Positions 3,340 to 25,544 of a stretch of DNA of 64,000 nt are shown in pieces; positions within the stretch are counted from its first letter, which is position 1, and every line of letters starts with the position of its first letter. The DNA is from Chrysophaeum taylorii. Taxonomy: Eukaryota; Sar; Pelagophyceae; Pelagomonadales; Pelagomonadaceae. The translations under genes and the position numbers were made by a program. The stretch covers positions 1-64,000 of the forward strand of contig JAQMWT010000099.1 in assembly GCA_029834535.1 (NCBI GenBank), read 5' to 3'. The notes beneath the pieces are model-generated. The model did no database searches. It saw only the letters and a list, made by a program, of their open reading frames with translations, and was not told the DNA's origin.

Positions 3340-5145
3340 TTTCCATCGACGAATATAAACTTAAGTGCCTCCACGGTATGTCGCCTGAAGACAGGCACGT
3401 CTACCTCAAGGCCATCGCCAAGGAACTCCACGACATTATCCGCTTTGGCTGCTTCAAACTTCTTTACCCGACGGTGTCTCTCGCCCTATTGACAGCAGGA
3501 TGGTGCTGAAGATTAAAACAGACTCTGCAGGCAAATACGTTAAGCACAAGGCTTGCCTCGTGCTACGTGGCTTCCTAGCGTCCATTGGCGCCGATTTCTT
3601 TGGCACCTTCGGCCCAATGGCCACAATGACCGCAATCCGGGTACTACTGGCTATTGCAGCATACAAGCAATTGCCTGTCTACCACGCAGACGTCCCGAAC
3701 GCCTTCGTTCAGTCTGACATTGATGCCCGTCTATGTTCAGTTACCAGACGGCATCGCTTATCGACCCCGATGACGCTAAGTACAAGGGCCGACGCCTACC
3801 GAAACTGCGGAAGTCACTATGGACTTCGGCAATCACCATTTCTTTGGAACAAGAGATAGACGCTTCTTCCGTAGCCTTGGCTAAGCGACTGCATTCGGAC
3901 TCTTGCCTATATGCTCGAGTATCCGCACATGCTAAGTTCGTCGTATGCAGTCTGTCTGTAGACGACATTGTTATTGTGTCCAATGATGACACTCTTCGTA
4001 CTGTGTTACAGGGTGCCCTTCACAAACGGTATGCTGTAGAGCAGTTTGAACCTGTCCATACCCTCCTAGGCATGCGTGTGTGTCGCACATCTGATGGATC
4101 CATCTCTCTGGATGTGCAAGCCAAGCTTGATGAACTCTTCGCTGATCACCCTGTCTTGCAGCAACTAACTCCGCTTAAATATCCTATGTCATCGTCCTTC
4201 AAGTATAAAGATGGCACTCCCAGCTCTGAAACAGAGTTGTACATCAACTCGCACTTTGCCACCCTCCTTGGCAAGCTGGTGTTCATGCAAGTGGCCTGCA
4301 GACCTGACTTCTCGCAAGCCTTGGGCAGATGTTCGCGTGGTATGCATGCACCCACGTATGTTCACGTCCAAATGCTAGAACACCTGCTCCGCTACCTGGG
4401 GAAGCCGGAAAACCGCTCACTTCGCCTCTGGTTCCATCCTAAAGGTAATGCTATTGAAGCTCACCTTCGCACTGTCTCCGCAAATAGAATCGATCTCTCC
4501 ACTGTGGTTGACTACCAACCGCAGGATGTATCCACTGGACAGTTTGATCCCTTAGTTGCCATGGTTGACGCGGACAACGCCCCTTCCTTAGCACAGGAAG
4601 ATAGGAAATCTACCACCGGGTTTGTCTTCTATCTTTTCAACTGCCTTATTGGTTGGAAAAGCAAGCTTCAACCGATTGTCTCCTGCTCAACTCACGAAGC
4701 TGAGTTGATTGCCCTCAGTATTTGTGCTGATGAAGCTGTTTGGCTACGCAAGCTGCTGTTGGAACTCTCCTTTGTCGTCAACCCCACCTTCTACGTCAAC
4801 AATGTTAATGGTGATAACACCGCTGATCCTGTTGATTTCGATGACAATGACAACCCAATTGCTGAAGATATGCGCTTCGTCAGAAGCCTACCTCTCTTGT
4901 CTGACAATGCTGCTGCTGTTCACACCTCTAATAACCCAGATGGATCATCTCGCTCCACGGCACTGTCGACCAGATGGTTTAAGATCCGTGAGTACATCTC
5001 GCTACAGAAAATTCGAGTCCATCATGTTCCCGGCAAGCTAAACGTGGCTGATGGTTTTACAAAGCCACTTGCTGCTGAGTTCTCCACTTTTCGTTCTCTA
5101 CTCGGTATGCATCATGCCTCTGACGACACGCCTTTACAGCATTGA
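3340..5145 (+). pseudogene. Copia-type reverse transcriptase and RNase H, frameshifted
   Basis: Three frames together give a near-complete RVT_2 domain. The first, ending about 3470, has SPEDRHVYLKAIAKELHDII. The second (3500-3859) has VLKIKTDSAGKYVKHKACLV and the region around HADVPNAFVQ. The third (to 5145) has the catalytic LSVDDIVIVS box. The third frame continues into the copia RNase H signature SCSTHEAELIALS and ends with HHVPGKLNVADGFTKPL, the usual copia C-terminus. In a live element this enzyme copies the RNA into cDNA. At least two indels break it, although the third segment (about 430 codons) is intact. Confidence 0.88.
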
Positions 5146-7194: not shown

Positions 7195-8640
7195 TTAACC
7201 TTTCTCGTGTAGTTCTAGATGCCGCCTGTCGTGTTCTGTGGATATAGGGAACATACCTTTCATTCCCCGAATTAAATACTTCCAGACGTTCATGATGAGA
7301 CGGGATGGTTTCCCAGGTGACTTACCGCTGCATGCTAAATGCTCTGCAAAAGGTCCGAACAAATCCATACAAAGGACGGCGCAATCACCATCATACACCG
7401 GTTGCTGAAGTAGACCTGCTTTCTTTGGTTCAGGCGTACGAGCTTTCTTGCACACTATGCAACCAGCAATATAAGCACCCACCTCATTAGACATGTGGTG
7501 CCACCGAAAACGTTCAAGTATCGACTGCACTGTACTTTGACGACCCATGTGACCACCATTGAGAGGTGTGTCACGGTACAATCGGATGATGCGCGTCCGT
7601 AAAGTTCGGGGTGCGACTATCATCGGGTGCAAGTCAGGTGCGGCACGGTAGAGAACTCCTTTCACCACATGATAGCGATAATTGGCTCCGTACCGACGAA
7701 AAGAGTGGCTCTGAGCCATGCGATAACGAATGTCCTCGCATGTAGCATCAGTGATCTGCTCTTTGGCTATCTCTCCCAAAGTCAAATTATCCGGAATCTT
7801 GTCGATGTACACTTGGTAATCATCGGCATCACGGAAAATACTAGGCTGGGTCTGCAGACGTTGCTTCTGACGTTGTTTCGTAGCATGAGACGTGACCAAT
7901 TGCTTTGGATCATTGAGGTCCTCTTCCTCTTCCTCCACAGGCAACTTAGTCGTAACAAACGACAGAATGACATGGCACCCAGGTAAAGGTACTCCTTCAT
8001 CATCGACAGGGCGAGGAATTTCTTGGCACACTAGATACGCGTGGTTCAAGGGTTCACCAAACTCGTCCGTCTCGATGACATGATCTATAGGATTGCGAGA
8101 GAGACAGTCAGGGATGCTCATTCCCGGCGACTTCCCTTGTTTGTAACCCAATTCAGGATCAAAGTTGGCGAGCCGCATCGCCCATCGAGCCAACTGCCCA
8201 GACGAGTGCTTCGCCTTTCGTAAAAACGTCAAGTTGCGATGATCCGTTTCAAGGATCGTCTTGTGACCTTCGATATAAGAGCGGAAATGCTCAAGAGAAA
8301 GAATAACTGCCTGTAGCTCTAGCCGGCGAGGCTCATAGTTCCGCGTCTCTTTCGGCGCAGCTCTGCTCCAATACTCAATTACTCGTTCCTCTCGTGTCAC
8401 CTTGCCGGTTTCGTCCTTGACTTCCACGAGCTGAAAAAGATACGCGCCCAGACCATCCTTGGAAGCATCCGAGCGGATCTGAAAAGGAAGATCGTATTCA
8501 GGATGATAAACTCCGCGAGAGTCCACCAAAGCTTCGATGATCGCGTCCCATGCCTTTTGGCACTCAGGCGTCCACTCAAACTTAACGCCTTCAAGACACA
8601 ATCGACTAAGTGGCTCCACAATCTTCGAATAATTCTTCAC
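7195..8640 (-). pseudogene. Gypsy-type RNase H and truncated integrase
   Basis: The N-terminal part (NYSKIVEPLSRLCLEG, then FEWTPECQKAWDAI) is the RT connection found in gypsy pol. RNase H follows with IRSDASKDGLGAYLFQ, ELQAVILSLEHFRSYI and ETDHRNLTFL, all typical, and the tether ends near PDCLSRNPID. The integrase zinc finger reads HMGRQSTVQSILERFRWHHM then CIVCKKAR. The first catalytic-core Asp lies in MDLFGPF. After that the sequence departs from the family and stops, so the DDE core is incomplete. The join to the upstream RT frame is out by one base near 8660, where the usual segment before NYSKI is split between frames. Confidence 0.88.
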
Positions 8641-9962
8641 ACATCGGCGGCAATAGTGCTCATGCCAATGAAAGATCGAATCTGGGTCTTCGGGGACGTA
8701 TTAGGCAACGTACCGGGAATCGGCATCTGCTGCAACGCTTCTGACGTCTTGGGATTCGGCTTCAAGCCCTCCGGAGTCGAAACGTGTCCCAAAAACTCGA
8801 TTTCATCCTTGAGGAGGTGGAACTTCGAAGTTCGAACACTATATCCTCGCTGCGCTAAATGGCACAGCACTTCAATCAAAACTTGTAAATGTCGATGGAG
8901 TTCATCCGATCCTATCATAATATCGTCGACAAACGCGACCAAGTCCTTATACATCCATGTGGACAAATCGCTAGCCATCTGCTTACAAAAGAGAGCTCCT
9001 GCTGTTTTTACTCCTAGAGGCAAGCGCAAGAAACTATGGGCTCCAAGTGGACTAACCATCGTAACGGCGTCCTGAGCAGCGGCGTCCAAACGTAGGTTAT
9101 GATAACCCCATCGAATATCAATGCACGTCCGCCAACGGCGCATGGCAAGAAAAGCCAAAGCATCATCTTGACGAATATTCGGCCAACTGTCATTGACTAG
9201 CTGATCATTGAGCTGACGCAAGTCAACTGCAGCACGAAAAGCATTCGACGTGCCGGCCTCTGCTCCCTTCTTAGGCAGCATCAGTACAGGGAATCCCCAC
9301 GGAGAGTTCGCCGGTCGGATGACTCCATCGCGACACCACTCAGGGATCTGCCTTCTGAGACACTCGAGCTTAGCTGGCGTCAACCTATAAGGCGTCATCT
9401 TGGTCGGTCGTGGGTTTGCGTCTTTAAATCGTAGAGAAACCGGTGGCGAGTCCACGGGCCTCATAATCGGATCAAAAAAAGCCCACGCGCATTGCACGCA
9501 GTGGCTCAACATCATCTTCGCATCTTCATCCAGATGCGGGTTGTCAGGAATTCCCAGTTCTCGAACAGCCTTTTCGACTTCTCCCTTCGTCGGAATTACG
9601 ACTTTCATCGCCTCATTGTCCTTGACGTGCTCAGGAGTCTGCGGTAACGGTACACCGTCCGCATCGCGCGGCGCATCCTTCCATGGCACATCGAACTTTT
9701 CTTCGTACTTGAACCTCACCTCGGGGTGGCTCTCATTGATCTTTTCACCATTGACGCGCACATTCGGCTTGCTCCTTACTTTCGGCTCCTGTTCAGGTTC
9801 AGGATCCGGTGGAACGTCCACTTTTGATTGTCGGGGGGGGGGCAGCAGAAAACGCATGAGCCGTCCCCGGCGCATCTGTTGGAAGCGGAAGCATAGGGGC
9901 TTCTGGCGGTTCCCAGTTAGTGGGATCCTGGAGATCATCTTTTGACACCCACTTAACGACAC
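8637..9962 (-). pseudogene. Gypsy-type reverse transcriptase
   Basis: The fingers and palm of a Ty3/gypsy RT are intact: PYRLTPAKLECLRRQIPEW, SPWGFPVLMLPKKGA, AAVDLRQLNDQL, the first catalytic Asp in CIDIRWGYHNLRL, FLRLPLGVKTAGALFCKQM, and the catalytic FVDDIMIGS. It ends at FIGMS with a premature stop caused by a one-base shift relative to the RNase H ORF. At its 5' side it overlaps another frame, and the switch falls at a run of nine C (coding strand; G run at 9833-9841). In an active element this would be continuous with the downstream RNase H. Confidence 0.92.
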
Positions 9963-10188
9963 CTCCCGGGCGGGCCGGTTGGCAGCCGGAACGTTCGCAG
10001 TGGGACGGGGTATGGCCGGGGGGCGAATACGGAAGGTTATCGACGAGTTGGTTGTCAGTCACATCGCGGTCTCCTCGTCGCATGGCGACAAGCTTGATGG
10101 TCACTCTCCGCCGACCGACCTTTCGGCGCTCCTCGTCTACAGGCCCGTGATTCCGGGCTGGCTCCTGTCGGTCCGGCCTGGCTCCCAT
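9799..10188 (-). pseudogene. N-terminal part of the gypsy pol ORF
   Basis: A 129-codon frame starting MGARPDRQEPARNHG. It runs into the RT frame across the homopolymer run at 9833-9841, where the first frame is lost and the RT frame (LPPPRQSKVDVPPDPEP) takes over. Its ATG lies inside the 46-bp repeated module at 10177-10222, directly after the methyltransferase stop codon. No domain is recognised; it is Arg- and Pro-rich. Confidence 0.5.
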
Positions 10189-10222
10189 GCTCGGGAGAGG
10201 TCTGAAGTTAGTTAGTTAGTTA
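10177..10222 (-). repeat. 46-bp module upstream of pol, copy of the 5' leader module
   Basis: It matches 16608-16653 at 42 of 46 positions. On the coding strand it begins with tandem TAAC repeats, which supply the methyltransferase stop, then CTTCAG and a potential stem CTCCC/GGGAG around the pol ATG. The element therefore carries the same module in its 5' leader and between the methyltransferase and pol. Confidence 0.75.
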
Positions 10223-11256
10223 ACGACACGAGTACGCGTATTTAACAGCGGAATCTGTACGTGACGAAAGGTGGTGTCGGAGATTCGCAAATACTGCTCA
10301 AAGGATCGATCTGTCGGGCTCGACGCGGCCGGCAGGACTTCGCCACTTTGGCGGAAACTTCTGCCAGAAGTTCTGGTCACGGAGTTGTGCAGATCGACTG
10401 CTAAAATCGCAAGAGTGTCTGGAGGGACGACAGACGCTACATGTTTGAGCGAATCTGTCTTAGACAAGCTAGCCCAATCATGGTCCACCGGCATCGTGAG
10501 CAACTCGGCCGTCATCTCGAGAGTCAAAGGCTGAGTGTCCGAGCGATGCGGTCCCAAACGAAGAGGAACTCGCGTAACGGTGTAAGCCGTATCTGTTGCT
10601 TCTCGGGACGAGCCAAGATTATTCAGCTGGAGCAGGTGGCGTTCATGAGCATAACCTAAAGCTGCAGCAATTTTTTGTTGCATGTTCACACATGTCTTCG
10701 GAGCCTCCTGCAAGTGCAGTGGGTGACTGGAAACCAACAATCGCACGCGAGAGCTCATCAGAGTGGGCGTGATATCATGTAAATTGACGACGTACACGTA
10801 AGGGTGTAAGCGCGCTATATAAGAAATAAGGGACGCCTCCTGTTCAATCAGCCGCATCATGAAGCCAGCCATTTTGCACAGCTTCATCGTCCAGTTAGTG
10901 GCCGTAACACCCCTGCCAACATCTCTGGATGTCAAGTTGCAGAGTGCTGAATGAACGCAGGGTGGAGACGCTATACACATCGACGATGACCATTCCGCTT
11001 CAGGCAAATACGCCTTGATCAATCGGAGGGTCGAGCCATATCGTCCGCAGAGCGTGTGCTGAACCACAGGTATCTTTGGAAAATTCTTCTGATGAACCTT
11101 GTTGGCAGCTGTTGAAGAGTCAAGAGCAAGGACGACTCGAAACGACGTCCCGCACAACTCATTCGCTCGTTGCAGTCCTAAAGTACTTCCTCCGGCGCCG
11201 CTAAAGAGCATCACAACCCTTGCGATACGTAATCGGCACCCAGTGGACTTTTTCAA
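10216..11256 (-). CDS. Retrotransposon-borne cytosine-C5 DNA methyltransferase-like protein
   Basis: A 346-residue ORF with the motif order of C5-cytosine methyltransferases, which transfer a methyl group from S-adenosylmethionine to cytosine in DNA. Motif I is LFSGAGG (17-23), the cofactor loop. A motif II-like ALDSSTAANKVHQKNF follows (44-59). Motif IV SPPC places the catalytic Cys at 100, followed by VHS. Motif VIII is SRVRLLV (169-175). Motifs IX-X appear as QPLTLEMTAELL and later VVPPDTLAILA. The usual Glu of motif VI (ENV) is not seen; the equivalent PYVYVVNL has V-N. The target-recognition part is short. The ORF overlaps the preceding linker ORF by 56 nt and ends just before the repeated pol leader, so it belongs to the retroelement. 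Expression and activity are unknown, and the surrounding element is decayed. Confidence 0.82.
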   Translation of the reverse strand: MKKSTGCRLRIARVVMLFSGAGGSTLGLQRANELCGTSFRVVLALDSSTAANKVHQKNFPKIPVVQHTLCGRYGSTLRLIKAYLPEAEWSSSMCIASPPCVHSALCNLTSRDVGRGVTATNWTMKLCKMAGFMMRLIEQEASLISYIARLHPYVYVVNLHDITPTLMSSRVRLLVSSHPLHLQEAPKTCVNMQQKIAAALGYAHERHLLQLNNLGSSREATDTAYTVTRVPLRLGPHRSDTQPLTLEMTAELLTMPVDHDWASLSKTDSLKHVASVVPPDTLAILAVDLHNSVTRTSGRSFRQSGEVLPAASSPTDRSFEQYLRISDTTFRHVQIPLLNTRTRVVN

Positions 11257-12003
11257 ACCTTCGGCGAATCTCGCCTTCTGTAACTTCTCGACATTTCTTT
11301 TCCTCCTCGTCAGTTCGTCGGTCGAAATCGTCGTTACCGAGCGATTCTTGACGAGAATTCTTCTTCTTATCGGCAGAAGGAGACGCCTTCTGCACCGAGC
11401 TCAACAGCATCGGTTCGGGTGCCGCATCGCCTTGTGTTAGATGGCTTGCGACCGAAACAGTGAATGGTAGGTTAGCCTTGTTAGATTCGGCTTCACCATC
11501 CTTCGTTAAATCGTCGACCGTCTCAGCATTCAGCTCGTCATCAAAACGAACAATATCGCCCAAAGCAAGGACTTCACCTTGAGTAATCACGGTCGGCACA
11601 TCCTGGGTAGAGGATATCGCCACTCCAGCTGCGAACTTATCATGATCCTCAGAAGAAGAACACATTCCATCGACCACCCCGAGTTGCTCGTACCCAGAAG
11701 ACGTGGCAACGAAAACTTGCCCGGTTCCATGGGCTCTGAAAGAGCGACTGGCACGCAGTAGGTGCGCCCAGGCTCGACCTTCATCGTGCGCGCAGCATAG
11801 GCTATCACTTCATAGGCATCGCTGTTCGAACTTTGAGAAGGCGTAACTGGAGGGACTCCCAAAGTCGTTGAAGCTCCCGCTCGTTTCGGCGGTGGACGCT
11901 GGAGGTCTTCAATCTTGCACAAGCGAGCGTAGACTCGGTTCTCAACTGTGCTCAGGCTTTGTTGCATCGCATGGTGCTGTTGCCCATGAACCTGGACTAC
12001 CAC
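11201..12003 (-). pseudogene. Linker segment between protease and methyltransferase, two frames
   Basis: Two overlapping frames (11587-12003 and 11201-11677) together give a section like the post-protease part of gypsy pol: VIAYAARTMKVEPGRTYCVP, later QGEVLALGDIVRFDDE and an acidic/charged tail. The frame changes near 11.65 kb. The segment ends in VHWVPITYRKG, after which the methyltransferase frame takes over by another shift. Confidence 0.55.
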
Positions 12004-12018
12004 GGGGCTGCGCTCGTC

Positions 12019-12440
12019 TTAAGTTGTTCTGAACGTCAAAATCGGAGAATCGACTCGTCGATCCTGCACCTTTAACTTCTTGCGCCCATAAGCGACATTT
12101 GTGCGGAGAAACGCAATGCGATTTCGCGGGTAGTCCACAATGGCCCCCAACACCCGAATATCGCGCGTTCCCCCAAAAAATAGATGATTAGTATCGGCCA
12201 CAATGGCAACAACTGGAACGACCACGTCGTCCGCAAGCGCAATCCGCAATGCGACCCATTTGTGGATAGTCGTCTTATGCAATCCTGACCCGTACAGGGT
12301 GCGTTCGACTGGAAGATCGCCCCGGTCAAGGATGATACTATCCTTTGCCAGTTTTCGACCATCCCACGACAAATATAGGAGACATCAGCCATTCCATCCA
12401 CGCCGAAAGTCGTTGCGAACTTCGGCCCGTCTCGTCGTCT
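12019..12440 (-). pseudogene. Retropepsin-like aspartic protease, frameshifted
   Basis: One frame carries TFGVDGMADVSYICRGM, which resembles the active-site strand of retroviral-type proteases (DTGA followed by S-F/Y-I) with DGM in place of DTG or DSG. After a frame change near 12,360, the other frame carries the second half, ending DIRVLGAIVDYPRNRIAF, like the hydrophobic-hydrophobic-Gly strand and C-terminal helix of the fold. Such a protease would mature Gag-Pol. The odd active-site triad and the frameshift argue against activity. Confidence 0.55.
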
Positions 12441-13106
12441 GTAAATATGACCAACTATAAACGTAAGTGTACCAGGGTCCAAACAGCCGATGGTGATGAG
12501 GTCTTGCTCGATCTTTTCCCCATCGCTCGGTGAAAGTGCAGTGTGATGACATCGTATCTCCGGGTTCGCATCGCCCGGCATCTGCATCGTCACCGCTGCC
12601 ATATCTAGCGTTCCAAATCTCGCCTCTGAATCTATATTGGCGCTCGCCGCTTCGGCTGCTTCCTCATTCCCCAGTTTCGCTGACAACAAATTCTGACACT
12701 TCTCAATCGGAGGTACATATACTTCCCTCTTCATCTCTTCTGGCAATCGCCGTTTCTCGTCCATCAAATCGGACATTCCCGTCAACTTCTCCTCCATCGG
12801 CGCCGCTGTGGTCTGCTCTGCTGCGACCAAAACTATATCGGCTAAGACACCGGCTAAAACGGTCTCAACATCGGCTAAAACGGTCTCGGCTATAACGGTC
12901 TCGGGGGGGGGGGGCGTAGGAAAAGAAGACGTCGTCCCCGACGTCAACTCAAAAGGTCTAACGTCATCATCGTGAACTGCCCTGCGAGACATGCACATTG
13001 ACGAATGGAGGGACACAGGAACCTGCGGCATGGGTTCGTCGGTCTCCGAATCTGAGTCTTCCCAGTAGTGCGGAGAATCCAAAGTAGCATCTGATATTGC
13101 TTCCAC
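12440..13106 (-). pseudogene. Acidic segment between gag and protease
   Basis: The frame starting at 13106 (MEAISDATLDSPHYWEDSDS) is acidic and low in complexity. It includes a short tandem repeat of ETVLADVETVLAGVLADIV type, encoded by repeats at about 12,840-12,900, and it runs in frame into the first half of the protease. No domain recognised. Confidence 0.45.
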
Positions 13107-13109
13107 ATA

Positions 13110-13559
13110 CTATGTAGAAGGCCACCGAACGATCCGAGCGTTGGTGGTATTTTGCTCCTGTTGCAAGCGATGGCTGCTCGTCACAGCGACATCGGCAGCA
13201 TCATCGGAGACTCGGGCGGGGCGCGCCGTCGGGTAAAAGACAACTCCCGACGATGGCGGCGCGTCGCATAAAGATTGGAACGCGAAAGTTGCGCTCGAAT
13301 GTCCCGAACTATCCTGATATCGACCTCCGTCATATTCGTCATCGTAATGTCGATGACGTCGGCGCCGGCGCGAATTGCGACTAGAGCTCCGGTGACGGCG
13401 GGGACTCGGGCTGGTTTGAGGAGTATTGGCCTTTCGATCAGGGCTCTGGCTTCGATGTCGGCGCGACGATGGTCTAGAAGGTGATCGTCCGTCTCGCTGT
13501 CGTGTAGAAAACGACGTAGTATCCTTGATGCCTCTGACCTCGCTCACCATGGTCGCCAT
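13110..13559 (-). pseudogene. Arg/Ser-rich segment of gag
   Basis: The 149-codon frame is rich in RS and RRH repeats (for example RRHRSQSPDRK and RRRRRHRHYDDEY). It overlaps the end of the upstream gag frame by 16 nt. It is probably a nucleic-acid-binding part of Gag, displaced by an indel. Confidence 0.45.
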
Positions 13560-14773
13560 TGTGGTTCCGAGATCGGTGAGGGCCGTTTGAATTTCATTTC
13601 ATTAGAAGGCCCCGATCCGCGCGTGGCGTTCGCATGAGATGCATCATCACGCTTCTCCCAATCGGAACGCGATATGGGGTGCTTCTTCTGCTTTCGAATG
13701 CGCTTCCACATCGCACAGTAATAACGATTCGGATCGCGGTTGCAAACCACGCCATGGGTGGTCCAGAAGAATCCGCAGTCCTTGCACGTCCTCTTGCACC
13801 ACAAAGAAGGATCTCGTAAGATCAGCGGATCCGTATTCCCAGACAGTTTATCCGCATCTTGCTTGGCTTGTTGATCGGAGGCCATAGCTCGACCTCCCCG
13901 CCCTCGCGGCGGTTTATTCGATTTCGGATTAGGAGGGCCTTGGTCCTTCTCCTCCTCTATCAACTTTTGTATGTTGATCTCGAGCCGCGTGATAAGCGCC
14001 ACCATCGACTTAAAAGTCAAGTAACTATCAGGATGTCCGCTCCTCATAGTCCGCATACGGGTCCTCAACTCCTTGGATGTCAACCCGCTGATAAGCTGGT
14101 CGAGGATATCGACATCATCCATCGTGCTGCTGGACACGGAACAAAACGCCAAGGCTGCCGATTGGACCTTGGTACAATACGTCTGGACGTGCCGCTCCCC
14201 AGACTTCTTCGGAACTGAAGCCCGGGTGACCTTCCGCAGTTTGTCGAGCAGCTCCTGCTGCGTGCTCGGAGGTCGGCAAGTCGATCTAAAGTAATCCAGA
14301 ATTTTACCGCAATACATCTTATTAAGACGGCGGATGCGACGAACCGAGGCTCCATGCTCTTCATCGTCAGCATCCAATTTCAAGTAAAACGACGGACCGT
14401 GCGGTAGCTCATCGCAGAGCTCCTCGTATTTCTGCAAGTGTTCCTCAAAAATTGGTGCAACGGTGTCCCGTAGATGCACCGGTAATAAGTAGCGTAATTT
14501 CTCGACCGAGTAATGGTCATCCGCCAAAGTATGCATCACCGCTGCCGAATCCAAATTGAATTGCCGTTGATCTCGGCCGTCGATGACGAGTTTGAAGTTG
14601 TCAGGTTTCAAACTGGAAGTGGGGCGACGGGATCGGCTCAAGTTGCCCTTTTCGAAGGCGTCCGCAACCGTCTGCGATATTCCCCGCGATAATTCCCGTA
14701 AAATTTTTGTACCTTCATCCTCAGCTTCCGCCCTAACCCTCAGTCTCCGTATCGACTCGGGGCGGAGGTTCAT
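13544..14773 (-). pseudogene. Gag-like core with Cys-rich end
   Basis: A 409-codon frame directly upstream of the protease region. It has a helix-rich capsid-like middle (VHLRDTVAPIFEEHLQKYEEL, later DILDQLISGLTSKELRTRM and FKSMVALITRLEINIQKLI). A Cys-rich stretch follows, CKRTCKDCGFFWTTHGVVC then RYYCAMWKRI, which could bind zinc and RNA. The match to Gag is by position, helical content and the Cys cluster, not by a named motif. The first Met is probably internal, because an in-frame coiled coil lies upstream across a frame break. Confidence 0.6.
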
Positions 14774-14878
14774 TCCCCGTTTCAGTGTTCCTTTCCGGTT
14801 CAGGCTGCCTCACGGGCGTTTCCGGTTCGGGTCGACTCACGGGTCGTTCGCAGCTACTCTCACGACGCGTACGTTCGG

Positions 14879-15283
14879 CTAACTATTCATCTCGTTCACG
14901 ACGAAGTCGTTCAACCTCTTCACGTAGGGTCTTCGATGTCTCAATCTCTTGCTGCAATGCGTCATTGAGCATATCAACTTCTCGTCGAGCCGCTTCCTCT
15001 TTCGCTTCAGCCCTTTCACGTTTTCGCGACGTCTCCGCTCGAGGTCTTCACGAAGTCGACTTCGGGCTGCAGATCCGCGCTCAATCGTAACACGCTCGCC
15101 ACGGTCCGGGGTCGTTGGACTCAACGGCGAAAAAATGGCAGTATCCGGAGGCACGTCAGGGGGCAAGTCAGCAATGTCGACTGCCTCGGCATCTTTTAAT
15201 TCACCTTCCTCGCGGCCTATCTCAGGGGCGGCGGGAAAAACTGGAGGAGATTCTTCCTCACGCACGTCTGCGTCTGTATCCAT
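14879..15283 (-). pseudogene. N-terminal gag segment with coiled coil
   Basis: Starts MDTDADVREEESPPVFP and is Pro/Glu-rich, then basic. A neighbouring frame over 14,880-15,000 reads as a heptad-like coiled coil (LREEVERLRRERDE) and runs on into PVSRPEPETPVRQPEP, so an indel separates the true N-terminus from the gag core. Confidence 0.45.
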
Positions 15284-16500
15284 ACTGTATCAAAATATCT
15301 ATGAGGAATCTCGAAACACGTCCGGATCCGATCACTCGAAGTAAGTCACGTTGATCCCAGGAACGCTATCTGTCGCTGTAAAAACAGCACTCGCGGAATT
15401 CCAATCCGCTGGCAATTCAAAAATGCCCGTGGGTAGCGATCCCACTCGCTAACAGCTTCCGCCGTTCAGCTATACCAAAATCAATTCCCGGGAGAATGCG
15501 CCGCGATTTCCAACTCGCACGCGTGTTCGTCGTCACTCGGAACGCACGAACACAACAACGTTCGAGTATATTCTCAACGCAAACCGGCCCACTGGAACTC
15601 CGCGTGCTTGATCAGGGCACACGTACAAATCCGGACCACGTAATACAATACGTACGGCAGCACTCGCTCGTCGGCGACCGATGTAGTCGCACGATCTCAT
15701 ATCCTCCACCACGTATGGCGGCACAGAAAAAACCACTCCCGACCCCCTGGTGACAAAGGGGGCACTCACCGACTCGTCCTAGACCTCACTGAACGAGGAA
15801 AACACGGACTCGGGGTCGGGTATGCTCGCCACACACCTTGCTCACGCTCACCAAGCCTCTCAACAAGATGGAGAGATGGTATATGATAGCAAGAATGCTA
15901 CAAGAATACTGCAAGAATGCTTCTCACAAGAGAGAGGTATGATGTCACTAGGAAGGTAGTGAACGGCGTCCCGTTGAACGGGTATCAAGCCTCGAGAAAG
16001 GGAGGGTAAGCCTTAGCGGTCAGAAGTTGTCGGCACAGGGAGCGCGAGACAAGAAGCGCAGCGGACGGACGGCAGAGGGCGAGCCGAGGCGAAGGGTGTA
16101 AGAGCAAACTCAAAGGTAAAAGGGCGGAGCGTGCGCTGATGAGAGCAGCTTAGATTGGCGGGGATCCGATCGTCGAGCTTAACTGGGGTGAATGGAACGA
16201 AGGACGTTGATGCAAGCCGGTCGTAAGGGACGGCCAAGCGCAAGCCTAACCGTCCGGGCACCCGACGGCCGGGAAACGTAAGGGGCGTTGGCCTTTCTGT
16301 GAGCGTTTTGGCTGGAGAACAGTAATCACAACTGTGTTACCCTTCAGCAGAGCGTGAGAACAATGGTAGTCTGTCCTCGAATCTGTCTCTCAATCGAGGA
16401 CAGCCGGTGTGAATAACACAGCGTTTTCTTAAATCAAAAGGCGGCAAAGTGAAGTGAACTAATCCTAGAATATGGGGTACTAACCCCAATTCAGATTTTC
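15284..16500 (-). other. 5' leader/LTR-like region of the gypsy-like element
   Basis: There is no coding signal over about 1.2 kb upstream of gag. The part at 16100-16235 is clearly related to 63149-63290 and, in its second half, to all four units of the 53-57 kb array. LTR borders could not be fixed because the other end of the element is missing. Confidence 0.5.
16100..16235 (-). repeat. Dispersed repeat segment, copy in the gypsy 5' region
   Basis: On the - strand it shares blocks such as CGGCTTGC.TCAACGTCCTTC, CCCGCCAA.CTAA and TATCAGCGC-like and CCTTTGAGTTT-like blocks with + strand 63149-63290. The CCGCCAATCTAAG.TGCT block also occurs once per unit in the tandem array (near 53.61, 54.63, 55.53 and 56.55 kb). 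Confidence 0.75.
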
Positions 16501-16540
16501 TATCTCTATTGGCGCTCCCTGCGCGTGATGCCGTTGCTGG
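16501..16540. repeat. 40-bp direct repeat, copy 1
   Basis: It matches 16652-16691 at 39 of 40 positions (begins tatctctattggcgctccct). The two copies are 151 bp apart. Confidence 0.85.
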
Positions 16541-16607
16541 ATCCCTCGCCTCTACACCAGTTGTGTGATTTTGCTCTGTGATCCTGGACCGGCGCCTGCC
16601 GGCCCAG

Positions 16608-16653
16608 CCTGGCTCTTATGCCCGGGAGAGGTCCGAAGTTAGTTAGTTAGTTA
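16608..16653 (-). repeat. 46-bp leader module, 5' copy
   Basis: It is the 42/46 match to the module in front of pol (10177-10222). Here the position of the pol ATG is ATA. It ends in the same tandem TAAC run on the coding strand. Confidence 0.75.
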
Positions 16654-16691
16654 TCTCTATTGGCGCTCCCTGCGCGTGATGCCCTTGCTGG
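16652..16691. repeat. 40-bp direct repeat, copy 2
   Basis: Second copy of 16501-16540, ending 49 bp before the start codon of the next gene. Retroelement sequence therefore reaches into that gene's promoter region. Confidence 0.85.
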
Positions 16692-23336: not shown

Positions 23337-25544
23337 ATGGCGATGTTCGTGGTGATGGTCGGCGTCGCCCAAGGGTTCCACTTGGCCGCGGCGCCGCAAC
23401 GGGCACCCCTAAAGGCAGGGGCGGCGGCGGAGCGCGACGTGGTGGTGATCGGCGGCGGGATCTCGGGGCTGTCGACCGCGCTCGAGCTGCGACGACGAGG
23501 CCGCAGCGTGACGGTGGTGTCGAGGGACTTGGCCGAGAGCGCGACCCGCGCCGCCGGCGGCATGCTCGCGCCCGCTGCCGAGCGACTCCACGAGGGTCCG
23601 CTGCTGGATCTGTGCGTCCAGGCGCGCGAGGCGTGGCCCGAGTGGGCGTCGTCGCTCGGGGGTCTCTCGGTGCGCGGGGTCGGAGGCTTCGTGTCGCCGT
23701 GCGTCGCCGAGGACGATCCGATCGCGCGTTGGCGCGTGCCGAGGTCCGCGGGCCCCGCCGAGTGGATGTCGGGGGAGGCCCTGGTGGCAATGGAGCCCTC
23801 GTTGGCCGGTGGACCCGCGTCGCGGCACGGCGGCTTGTGGTACCCGCTCGAAGCTTGGGTCGACCCGGTCGAGGCGCACGCGGCCGTGCTCCGCGCGTGC
23901 GAGAACGAGGGCGTTGAGGTCCGCGTGGGGGTGGATGTCGCGGGCCTCGATTTGGAGGCCGATAGGTGCGGCAAAGTCAGGCTCGCGGGAGGAGACTACG
24001 TTTTGGGCGCGCACGTCTGCGTCGCGGCCGGCGCGTGGCTTCGGTCCCTGCTGCCCGTGCCCGTCGACCCACAGAAGGGCCAGATGCTCGCCCTCCGGCC
24101 AACCCCCCAGAGCCCTCCCGGGCCCTCGCGCGTCGTCTACGGCTCGAAGGCCTATTTGATCCCCAGAGGCGACCGCGTCGTCGTCGGCGCGACGGTCGAA
24201 AACGTTTCGACCGCCCACTGCGACGTCAGGGGAACGCGAGCCCTCCTCGACGCCGCCGTCGCGCTGTGCCCGGGCTTGGACGAGTGGGTCCTCGACGAAT
24301 CCTGGGCGGGGCTGCGCCCGACGACCCGCGACGGCGCGCCCGTCCTCGGGCCCACGCGCTGGAAGAATCTCTGGGTCGTCGGCGGCTACTGGCGCAACGG
24401 CATCCTGATCGCGCCGCGCGCTGCGGAGCTCGTCGCCGACGCCATCGACGGTCTTCTCTCGAAAGCCGACGCGACCCTCCTCGAGGCCTTCGCGTGGGAC
24501 CGCTTCTTCGAGCGCCGCCGTCCGCCGCGGCTCGTCGTCGAGGAAGAGGCGCCGTTTGTTGTTGTTGACGACGGCAGGGAGGAGGAGGACGTAGGCATTG
24601 ACGAGGGGGGGTACGAGAGCATCGCGGCGCAGCAGGCGAAAGCAGGCACCAGCGTTGACGAGGGGGGCTACGAGAGCATCGCGGCGCGGCAGGCGGCGAC
24701 GATGGACGCGGCGAGGGCGGCGAACCGCGATCTCCTGTTTTCTGGCGCCGCGGACGAGCAGCAGCTCGTCGCGCGCGAGGTCGAGGACGAGGAGATGGAG
24801 GAGGTGCACGAATACAACGCTACGGCCGAGACGATCGCGAGGGTCAAGGAAGAGATTTGGAGCGGCGCGGTGACGGCGCGAGAGGCCCTCGACCGCGACG
24901 AGCGACTGGACGTGCTGTCGCTGATCGACCGCGAGGCCCTCGCGGATGCCGACCGATACTTTGTCGAGGATTACGAGCGCGAACGCGCGTCGCAACCCTT
25001 TGGGAACGTGAGGATCGATACGGGCAACGGCACGTCCAAGCACGTGCGGTTCAAGTTCATGCCGCCCGAGGTCGGGCTCCCGACCTTTGGGACCGCCGAC
25101 CGCCTCTGCGCGCTCGCGTCGCGCGCCGCGCTCGACGCGCCACCGCCGCCCCTCCAGCCCCAGGAATTGCCCGAAGACGCGGGAGACGACGATCGCGCTC
25201 GCGCGGACGCGGCCGACCGACTCTACGATCGAGTCGAGGCCAACAAGGGTGGACGCGAGCCCTACGAGATGACGATCGATGACGTCTACACGGTGCGATG
25301 GGTCGAGGAGGGTAAGACCCGCGACGACCGCGTCGTCCGCCAAGGGACGGCAAGAATCCTGGACCTTCGAAAATTCCTCGACCGCGGCGTCGCGCTCGCC
25401 GACGTCTTCGAGGTTCCGGCCGCCTTGATCGACGACCCCTTGACGGTACTCTTCGCGAAGATTCACGGCGGCAACGAGACCCTCGTCGCCAAGGATCCCG
25501 CGAGAATCCTCCGCGCCGAGCTCGTGACGACCCCCCCCCTTGGC

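Follow-up and report, generated by a model that had tools for sequence, protein, structure and literature searches.

A C5-methylase domain within a Ty3/gypsy retrotransposon

The window analyzed here is a 64,000-nucleotide stretch of the Chrysophaeum taylorii genome (contig JAQMWT010000099.1, positions 1 to 64,000), in which an open reading frame (ORF) with the motifs of a cytosine-C5 DNA methyltransferase (C5-methylase) is located within a long terminal repeat (LTR) retrotransposon. The first-pass annotation had placed this ORF at 10216..11256, and it was found there on the minus strand (11256-10216), the same strand as the rest of the element, with the named motifs I, IV, VIII, and IX-X present in the order that had been given. 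When scanned with Pfam DNA_methylase (PF00145), the check that had been proposed, the ORF passed the curated cut-off of 22 bits (25.5 bits, E = 1.1e-5; match covering 13-69 of 346), as did the subfamily C relatives described below. The window domain scored 35.4 bits with a profile built from four bacterial C5-methylases. By comparison, 96 of 200 shuffles of the domain were reported at all with the same profile and the best reached 1.0 bit, which ruled out a chance match as the origin of the methylase signal. The observation of a methylase ORF within a Ty3/gypsy LTR element was, at the level of sequence, confirmed.

Other copies in the genome were used to define the design of the element. The longest open frames, situated about 24 kb apart on C5, were found in L025 (G000:C5:544000-553999; 3063 codons in a single frame) and L026 (3067 codons, likewise in a single frame). 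In these long frames a protease (PR)-like region is followed by the methylase, reverse transcriptase (RT), RNase H, and integrase; and in L025, L026, and L028 the PR-like region, methylase, and RT share one frame. Pfam domains of L025 were detected at 1443-1498 (DNA_methylase), 1997-2161 (RVT_1), 2256-2368 (RT_RNaseH), 2552-2610 (H2C2), and 2628-2721 (rve). This RT - RNase H - integrase order of Pol and the presence of paired LTRs assign the family to the Ty3/gypsy LTR retrotransposons. The LTR pairs were 98.2% (L015/L016), 95.8% (L019/L020), 95.2% (L017/L018), 93.1% (L021/L022), and 89.0% (L011/L012) identical. The first of these pairs bounds the L025 copy, starts with TGTGGCG, and ends with CGCCACA; no tRNA genes were found in L015/L016, and the flanks of this copy show no clear target-site duplication. 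The gag ORF of the window was matched in L027 and L028 and not in L025 or L026; thus, the longest frames fall short of complete elements, and L025 and L026 may rely on gag supplied by other copies.

The gypsy methylase was resolved into three subfamilies, with B 77-80% identical to A and 38-39% identical to C. Subfamily C (L034 and L035) gave the better Pfam DNA_methylase scores, with E-values of 4.2e-10 and 1.1e-9 (40.0 and 38.6 bits). The RT that follows L035 was found in L038, where its frames are broken, and was 58-63% identical to the RT of subfamily B. Across A, B, and C, the sequences GAGGST, ALD, ASPPC, the motif VI Glu, RxR, and VPP were invariant in seven of seven rows, and SPPC of motif IV, with its catalytic Cys, was invariant in 15 of 15 and seven of seven aligned rows. 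Motifs I, II, IV, VI, VIII, and X line up with those of bacterial enzymes and of the host DNMT2-like protein. The invariant Glu of motif VI aligns with the Glu of ENV and is followed by Gln-Glu (His-Glu in L035); the motif thus reads EQE or EHE (EQE in the window ORF) rather than ENV, the Gln of the motif VIII QxRxR is missing, also in the window, and motif VIII is followed by a short stretch. A profile match to bacterial C5-methylases was obtained with a probability of 97.8% over 89 columns. The structure predicted for L034 has a C5-methylase fold, with DNMT2 at the head of the Foldseek list; and in single-sequence comparison with PDB the window domain was likewise matched best by DNMT2, though weakly (E = 0.017 and 0.024). 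The CFT motif, a mark of DNMT2, was absent from the gypsy rows and present in the host protein L029.

The relationship of the gypsy methylase to other enzymes was examined in a tree of 13 rows, in which branches were long and four of the 10 inner branches were starred. The host genome carries a DNMT2-like gene (L029) and a DNMT5-like gene with an SNF2 domain (L030); no supported grouping of the gypsy methylase with L029 was recovered, and with such long branches the tree gives no support to an origin from host DNMT2 or DNMT5. The gypsy rows fell beside one bacterial row with weak support (66/93). The genome also includes a plastid contig with psaA (L047), which scored best against 9m4f and next against chains that include 7y7b (cryptophyte) and 6l4u and 6ly5 (diatom). 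A viral origin was considered, and two scans of viral contigs with a few short patterns gave no relative; the structure matches in BFVD were to general C5-methylases.

Genome protein searches returned 117 matches with the subfamily A query and 121 with that of subfamily B, which together define at least 165 distinct methylase-bearing places. Adding 30 Pfam-only candidates, hand-picked from 121 Pfam-search matches as lying near motif I (one, C57:374397, lies near the C-terminal motifs instead), raised the count to at least 195 places. The five of these candidates that were fetched (L033-L037) were all of the gypsy-methylase kind, three of them broken. These counts are lower bounds, and some of the places may represent a single locus present on both haplotypes; the contigs C10 (209,419 bases) and C297 (210,199 bases), for example, have element copies at nearly the same places and are probably two haplotypes, such that the copy counts include doublets of this sort. 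DNA_methylase matches to the C-terminal motifs only, at G000:C57:374397-374621 and G000:C260:30968-31159, are possibly exons of other host enzymes. Viewed from the RT, 61 of 103 matches had a methylase at the expected distance upstream. Neither of the outcomes named in the first-pass annotation as refuting was obtained: the ORF matches DNA_methylase, and other copies of the element carry it.

Selection was assessed as the ratio of nonsynonymous (dN) to synonymous (dS) change by the Nei-Gojobori method, with medians taken over pairs between subfamilies A and B. The methylase gave a dN/dS of 0.07 (finite in all 48 pairs, from 0.053 to 0.089; uncorrected ratio of proportions, pN/pS, 0.171), compared with 0.017 for a 106-residue RT fragment (32 pairs, maximum 0.068) and 0.114 for the PR-like region (21 pairs). 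Within subfamily A, the ratios of the RT fragment (0.48) and the PR-like region (0.60) both exceeded that of the methylase. Together with the motif conservation in the 38%-identical subfamily C, the A-B ratio shows that the methylase domain was kept by purifying selection during the subfamily split. A chance neighbour was ruled out by the copy number, the shared frame, and dN/dS. That the domain might be a passive, functionless passenger finds some backing in the broken window copy, in a copy within L010 (4017-9629) that joins gag to RT without PR and methylase, and in the 42 RT matches that had no methylase match at the expected place. However, both of the two cases fetched from these 42 carry the methylase in broken form (partly inverted in L039, frameshifted in L040); and with this, the many occupied places, and the low A-B dN/dS, we regard a passenger as very improbable.

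Anatomy and decay of the window copy

The features of the window copy are listed in Table 1, together with the copia-type elements described in the next section. This copy is decayed, as its similarity to L025 stops at 7348 (residue 2639 of 3063) and that to other copies at about 7349, the integrase core is gone, and no 3′ LTR was found.

Table 1. Features of the window copy and of copia-type methylase elements elsewhere in the genome
Feature	Position	Strand	Basis or remark
C5-cytosine methyltransferase domain	10220..11226	-	Pfam, shuffle control, alignments; fold seen in subfamily C relative L034
5′ LTR	15714..16039	-	About 90-95% identity to repeats bounding other copies
gag-like region	13544..15283	-	ORFs 14879-15283 and 13544-14773; Cys-rich tail
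Protease-like region, two frames in this copy	11716..12614	-	59-66% identity to L025 frame residues 979-1277
Insert of 257 bp parting methylase from RT	9963..10219		Absent at the same place in L011 and L013
Reverse transcriptase (RVT_1)	8637..9962	-	Pfam E = 8.2e-16
RNase H and integrase zinc-binding domain, truncated	7349..8640	-	RT_RNaseH E = 1.9e-26; Integrase_H2C2 E = 3.8e-12
Copia-type methylase elements	L031:1097-4999; L048:3-3152; L032:222-1202; L021:2-1787		Genome contigs C96, C4, C523

The 5′ LTR was 95.4% identical to a repeat in L010, 91.7% in L011, 94.1% and 90.2% in L013, and 89.7% in L021, while in L012 and L022 the similarity falls inside longer matches. The larger gag-like ORF (13544-14773) gave no match in Pfam. 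It is conserved at 85-96% in L009, L012, and L022, as fragments of 76-83% in L014, and at 50-56% in L010, L023, L027, and L028; the term gag-like was chosen for its place and repeated occurrence, without a domain match. Pfam likewise gave no match for the protease-like region, in which a retropepsin motif was recognized by eye as DGMA instead of D(S/T)GA.

The methylase is parted from the RT by an insert that begins CTAACTAACTAAC and is flanked by 10-bp target duplications (9953-9962 and 10220-10229) with the sequence GTGTCGTTAA on both sides. Relatives of this insert were found at six other loci, whole in L008, L012, and L038 and partial in L009, L016, and L020; in L038 (subfamily C), as in the window, the repeat adjoins the 3′ side of the methylase. 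The position of the ORF between the protease/linker and the RT on the same strand, as originally described, was upheld; its 3′ limit was found to be an accident of this copy, since the insert supplies the stop. Similarly, the 56-nt overlap with the upstream ORF is present, yet it is an artefact of a frameshift near or just before motif I, which also accounts for the separate start of the ORF, the copies in L025, L026, and L028 having one frame here.

Two further repeats were observed in the window. At 16501-16691, a 40-bp direct repeat with copies 151 bp apart encloses a 76-bp piece that shares 84% identity with 10147-10222, where the 257-bp insert has one of its ends. At 24595-24695, two copies of a 44-bp repeat, 57 bp apart, lie within a large ORF with an FAD-dependent oxidoreductase domain.

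A copia-type methylase family and the search for CpG decay

The Pfam search of the genome also returned 55 further rows within model positions 12-175 that were not at motif I. In L031 and L048 (C96), a frame of 1952 codons was found to encode DNA_methylase (6.4e-8), then rve (0.0032-0.004, below its cut-off), then RVT_2 (4.3e-39), which is the order of Ty1/copia elements. Across the genome, 139 matches to this copia-type methylase were obtained, with 131 candidates scored and some of the places represented by two pieces. It keeps ENVPP and has LPCQ in place of PPCQ, and it matched bacterial C5-methylase profiles at 94.6%. When compared with the gypsy methylase, no profile match was obtained (probability 0.1%, from shallow profiles), and in the 13-row tree the two formed separate, fully supported groups on long branches. 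The occurrence of two different enzymes in two element orders suggests two uptakes. The methylases of L031 and L032 differ by a dN of 0.140 and a dS of 1.288, indicating purifying selection on the copia-type enzyme as well. The L031 methylase piece had no significant match in the 64-kb window. The plus strand of the window carries, at 3733-5145, a degenerate copia RT/RNase H that was 27-41% identical to the RT of the methylase-bearing copia family.

Lasting methylation at CpG was sought in the gypsy copies through CpG observed/expected ratios (o/e) and transition rates and was not clearly found. The CpG o/e of seven gypsy A and B stretches was 1.17-1.36, similar to 1.30 for host DNA in the window. 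Lower values were obtained for a subfamily C fragment (1.10), for the copia piece L031 (1.02), and for the copia remnant in the window (0.78), which is CpG-poor and TpG-rich (TpG 1.47) and may indicate that methylation-linked decay occurs in the C. taylorii genome. C-to-T and G-to-A differences at CpG relative to other C/G sites were 1.21-fold in A and 1.05-fold in B, in counts for which the compared copy pairs are not mutually independent. The CpG transition rate was raised in the LTR pairs L019/L020 (five changes) and L021/L022 (two changes) and not in the three other pairs. The CHG and CHH contexts were unremarkable; the top C-T context in both A and B was CCT (0.045 and 0.057), for which no significance test was made. 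These results suggest that any mark on the gypsy copies is transient, sparse, or not at CpG.

Possible roles of the methylase and relation to known systems

We favour, with a probability of roughly 0.55, the interpretation that the gypsy element carries in Pol a C5-methylase that is kept by selection and acts on the element's own nucleic acid, most likely the complementary DNA (cDNA). Situated between the PR-like region and the RT, the domain would be translated as part of Pol and thus most likely travels in the particle. There the enzyme would most likely methylate the element's own nucleic acid, probably the cDNA before or at integration, and the methylated incoming DNA could be taken for the host's own or be spared by a nuclease or silencing reaction of the host. 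The first-pass annotation had proposed that an element able to methylate DNA could hide itself from host silencing or exploit it. Because clear CpG decay was not seen in the gypsy copies, we prefer a cDNA mark that is transient or sparse to lasting methylation of the copies.

Several findings weigh against this interpretation, including: (i) the Pfam match in A and B is mainly to motif I, and while L028 was above the DNA_methylase cut-off (25.3 bits), L025 and L026 were below it (18.4 and 18.9 bits); (ii) matches to NCBIfam dcm were weak (L034, 1.1e-4; L025, 0.0014) and all far below the model cut-off; (iii) with EQE/EHE at motif VI and no Gln in motif VIII, activity is not certain; (iv) A-B methylase dS (1.48-2.59) is near saturation, pairs with C were saturated in 26 of 28 cases (pN/pS about 0.6) such that the test says little for C, and the methylase dN/dS within subfamilies was higher (0.28 in A, 0.25 in B), the last being expected if single copies decay after insertion; (v) the L010 copy is without the domain; and (vi) the sought CpG methylation was not clearly found.

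The same absence of clear CpG decay would also fit an enzyme acting in a DNMT2-like manner on RNA, either that of the element or the tRNA primer. The DNMT2 matches noted above, weak in PDB and first in the Foldseek list, point in this direction, and an RNA substrate was raised for a LINE case in a passage of PMC5890265; we consider it unlikely. Self-restraint, in which methylation silences new copies so that the host is harmed less and the family is favoured, is named as a possibility in PMC5890265, the host DNMT5-like protein L030 could maintain such a mark, and the CpG-poor, TpG-rich copia remnant hints at methylation-linked decay. Yet self-restraint should relax easily, while the domain is strongly constrained and the gypsy copies are without clear CpG decay, and we hold it to be rather improbable. 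Less probable again is action in trans on host or competitor chromatin, such as the integration site, instead of the element cDNA; nothing direct speaks for it beyond the presence of two retroelement families with such enzymes in the genome, whereas the methylase is embedded in Pol in the long-frame copies and host DNA in the window is without CpG decay.

Hosts usually turn cytosine methylation against transposons, the mark being often used for silencing. The C5-methylase in a copia-type family, which we find the most surprising part of the analysis, points to a benefit shared by both families. Tentatively, and with considerable doubt, we suggest that two LTR superfamilies independently took up distantly related C5-methylases as a counter-measure to host attack on incoming DNA that lacks cytosine methylation. 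The host system would in that case be a eukaryotic analogue of restriction, with the Pol-borne methylases acting on cDNA before integration. With two LTR families preserving different C5-methylases, the question of why a transposon wants methylation becomes testable, as the families are abundant, some copies have long open frames and LTRs that are almost identical, and one or more copies that lack the domain are available for comparison.

Among cellular enzymes, the host DNMT2-like L029 and DNMT5-like L030 share the Pfam family and core motifs with the gypsy methylase, though L029 is 20% identical to L034. Bacterial C5-methylases (L041-L046, from cyanobacteria and others) share 29-36% identity with the gypsy methylase in the first part of the domain. 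They differ in being without a retrotransposon polyprotein, in the ENV and PQxRxR of L041-L044, and, for L041, L043, and L044, in having more sequence between motifs VIII and IX. The gypsy and copia-type families both place the methylase inside an LTR-element polyprotein, with that of copia preceding the integrase. No title or abstract opening in the literature covered, which leaves most subscription papers outside, points to the present element; and a C5-methylase within an LTR element does not appear in the passages found of PMC9998398, PMC3145265, and PMC6338049. A passage of PMC12344493 mentions LTR Copia and DIRS elements with DNMT3, and we therefore do not present the copia case as the first of its kind. 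Another mobile element of an alga, Sola1-1_Ec32 of the brown alga Ectocarpus, also has a DNA methyltransferase domain, as described in part of PMC12477816; however, it is a DNA transposon, and the product predicted for its enzyme is N4-methylcytosine or N6-methyladenine rather than 5-methylcytosine.

The closest parallels are the retrotransposon methyltransferases described in passages of PMC5890265, namely SymbioLINE-Dnmt and SymbioDIRS-Dnmt3 of Symbiodinium and KnitGypsy-Dnmt3 of Klebsormidium nitens, which bear out the statement in the first-pass annotation on such captures in dinoflagellates and a charophyte alga. The Symbiodinium elements resemble the present one as multicopy, retrotransposon-borne C5-methylases under purifying selection, and the SymbioDIRS enzymes methylate CG de novo in yeast (PMC5890265). 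They differ in being DIRS and LINE elements rather than an LTR element with an rve integrase, and the SymbioLINE-Dnmt copies are CG-depleted (PMC5890265), unlike the gypsy copies here. KnitGypsy-Dnmt3, set against the present element by description rather than by direct sequence alignment, is related to DNMT3 by tree (PMC5890265), whereas the present methylase has EQE at motif VI and a short stretch after motif VIII, and the plastid psaA of its host comes closest to chains that include cryptophyte and diatom ones, not green ones. In common, KnitGypsy-Dnmt3 is an LTR Gypsy element with intronless copies, a C5-methylase in the Pol frame, and low Ka/Ks on the domain (PMC5890265). Overall, the sequence evidence indicates that the C5-methylase domain borne by the C. 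taylorii retrotransposon is real, abundant, and selected, in an arrangement already known from KnitGypsy-Dnmt3.
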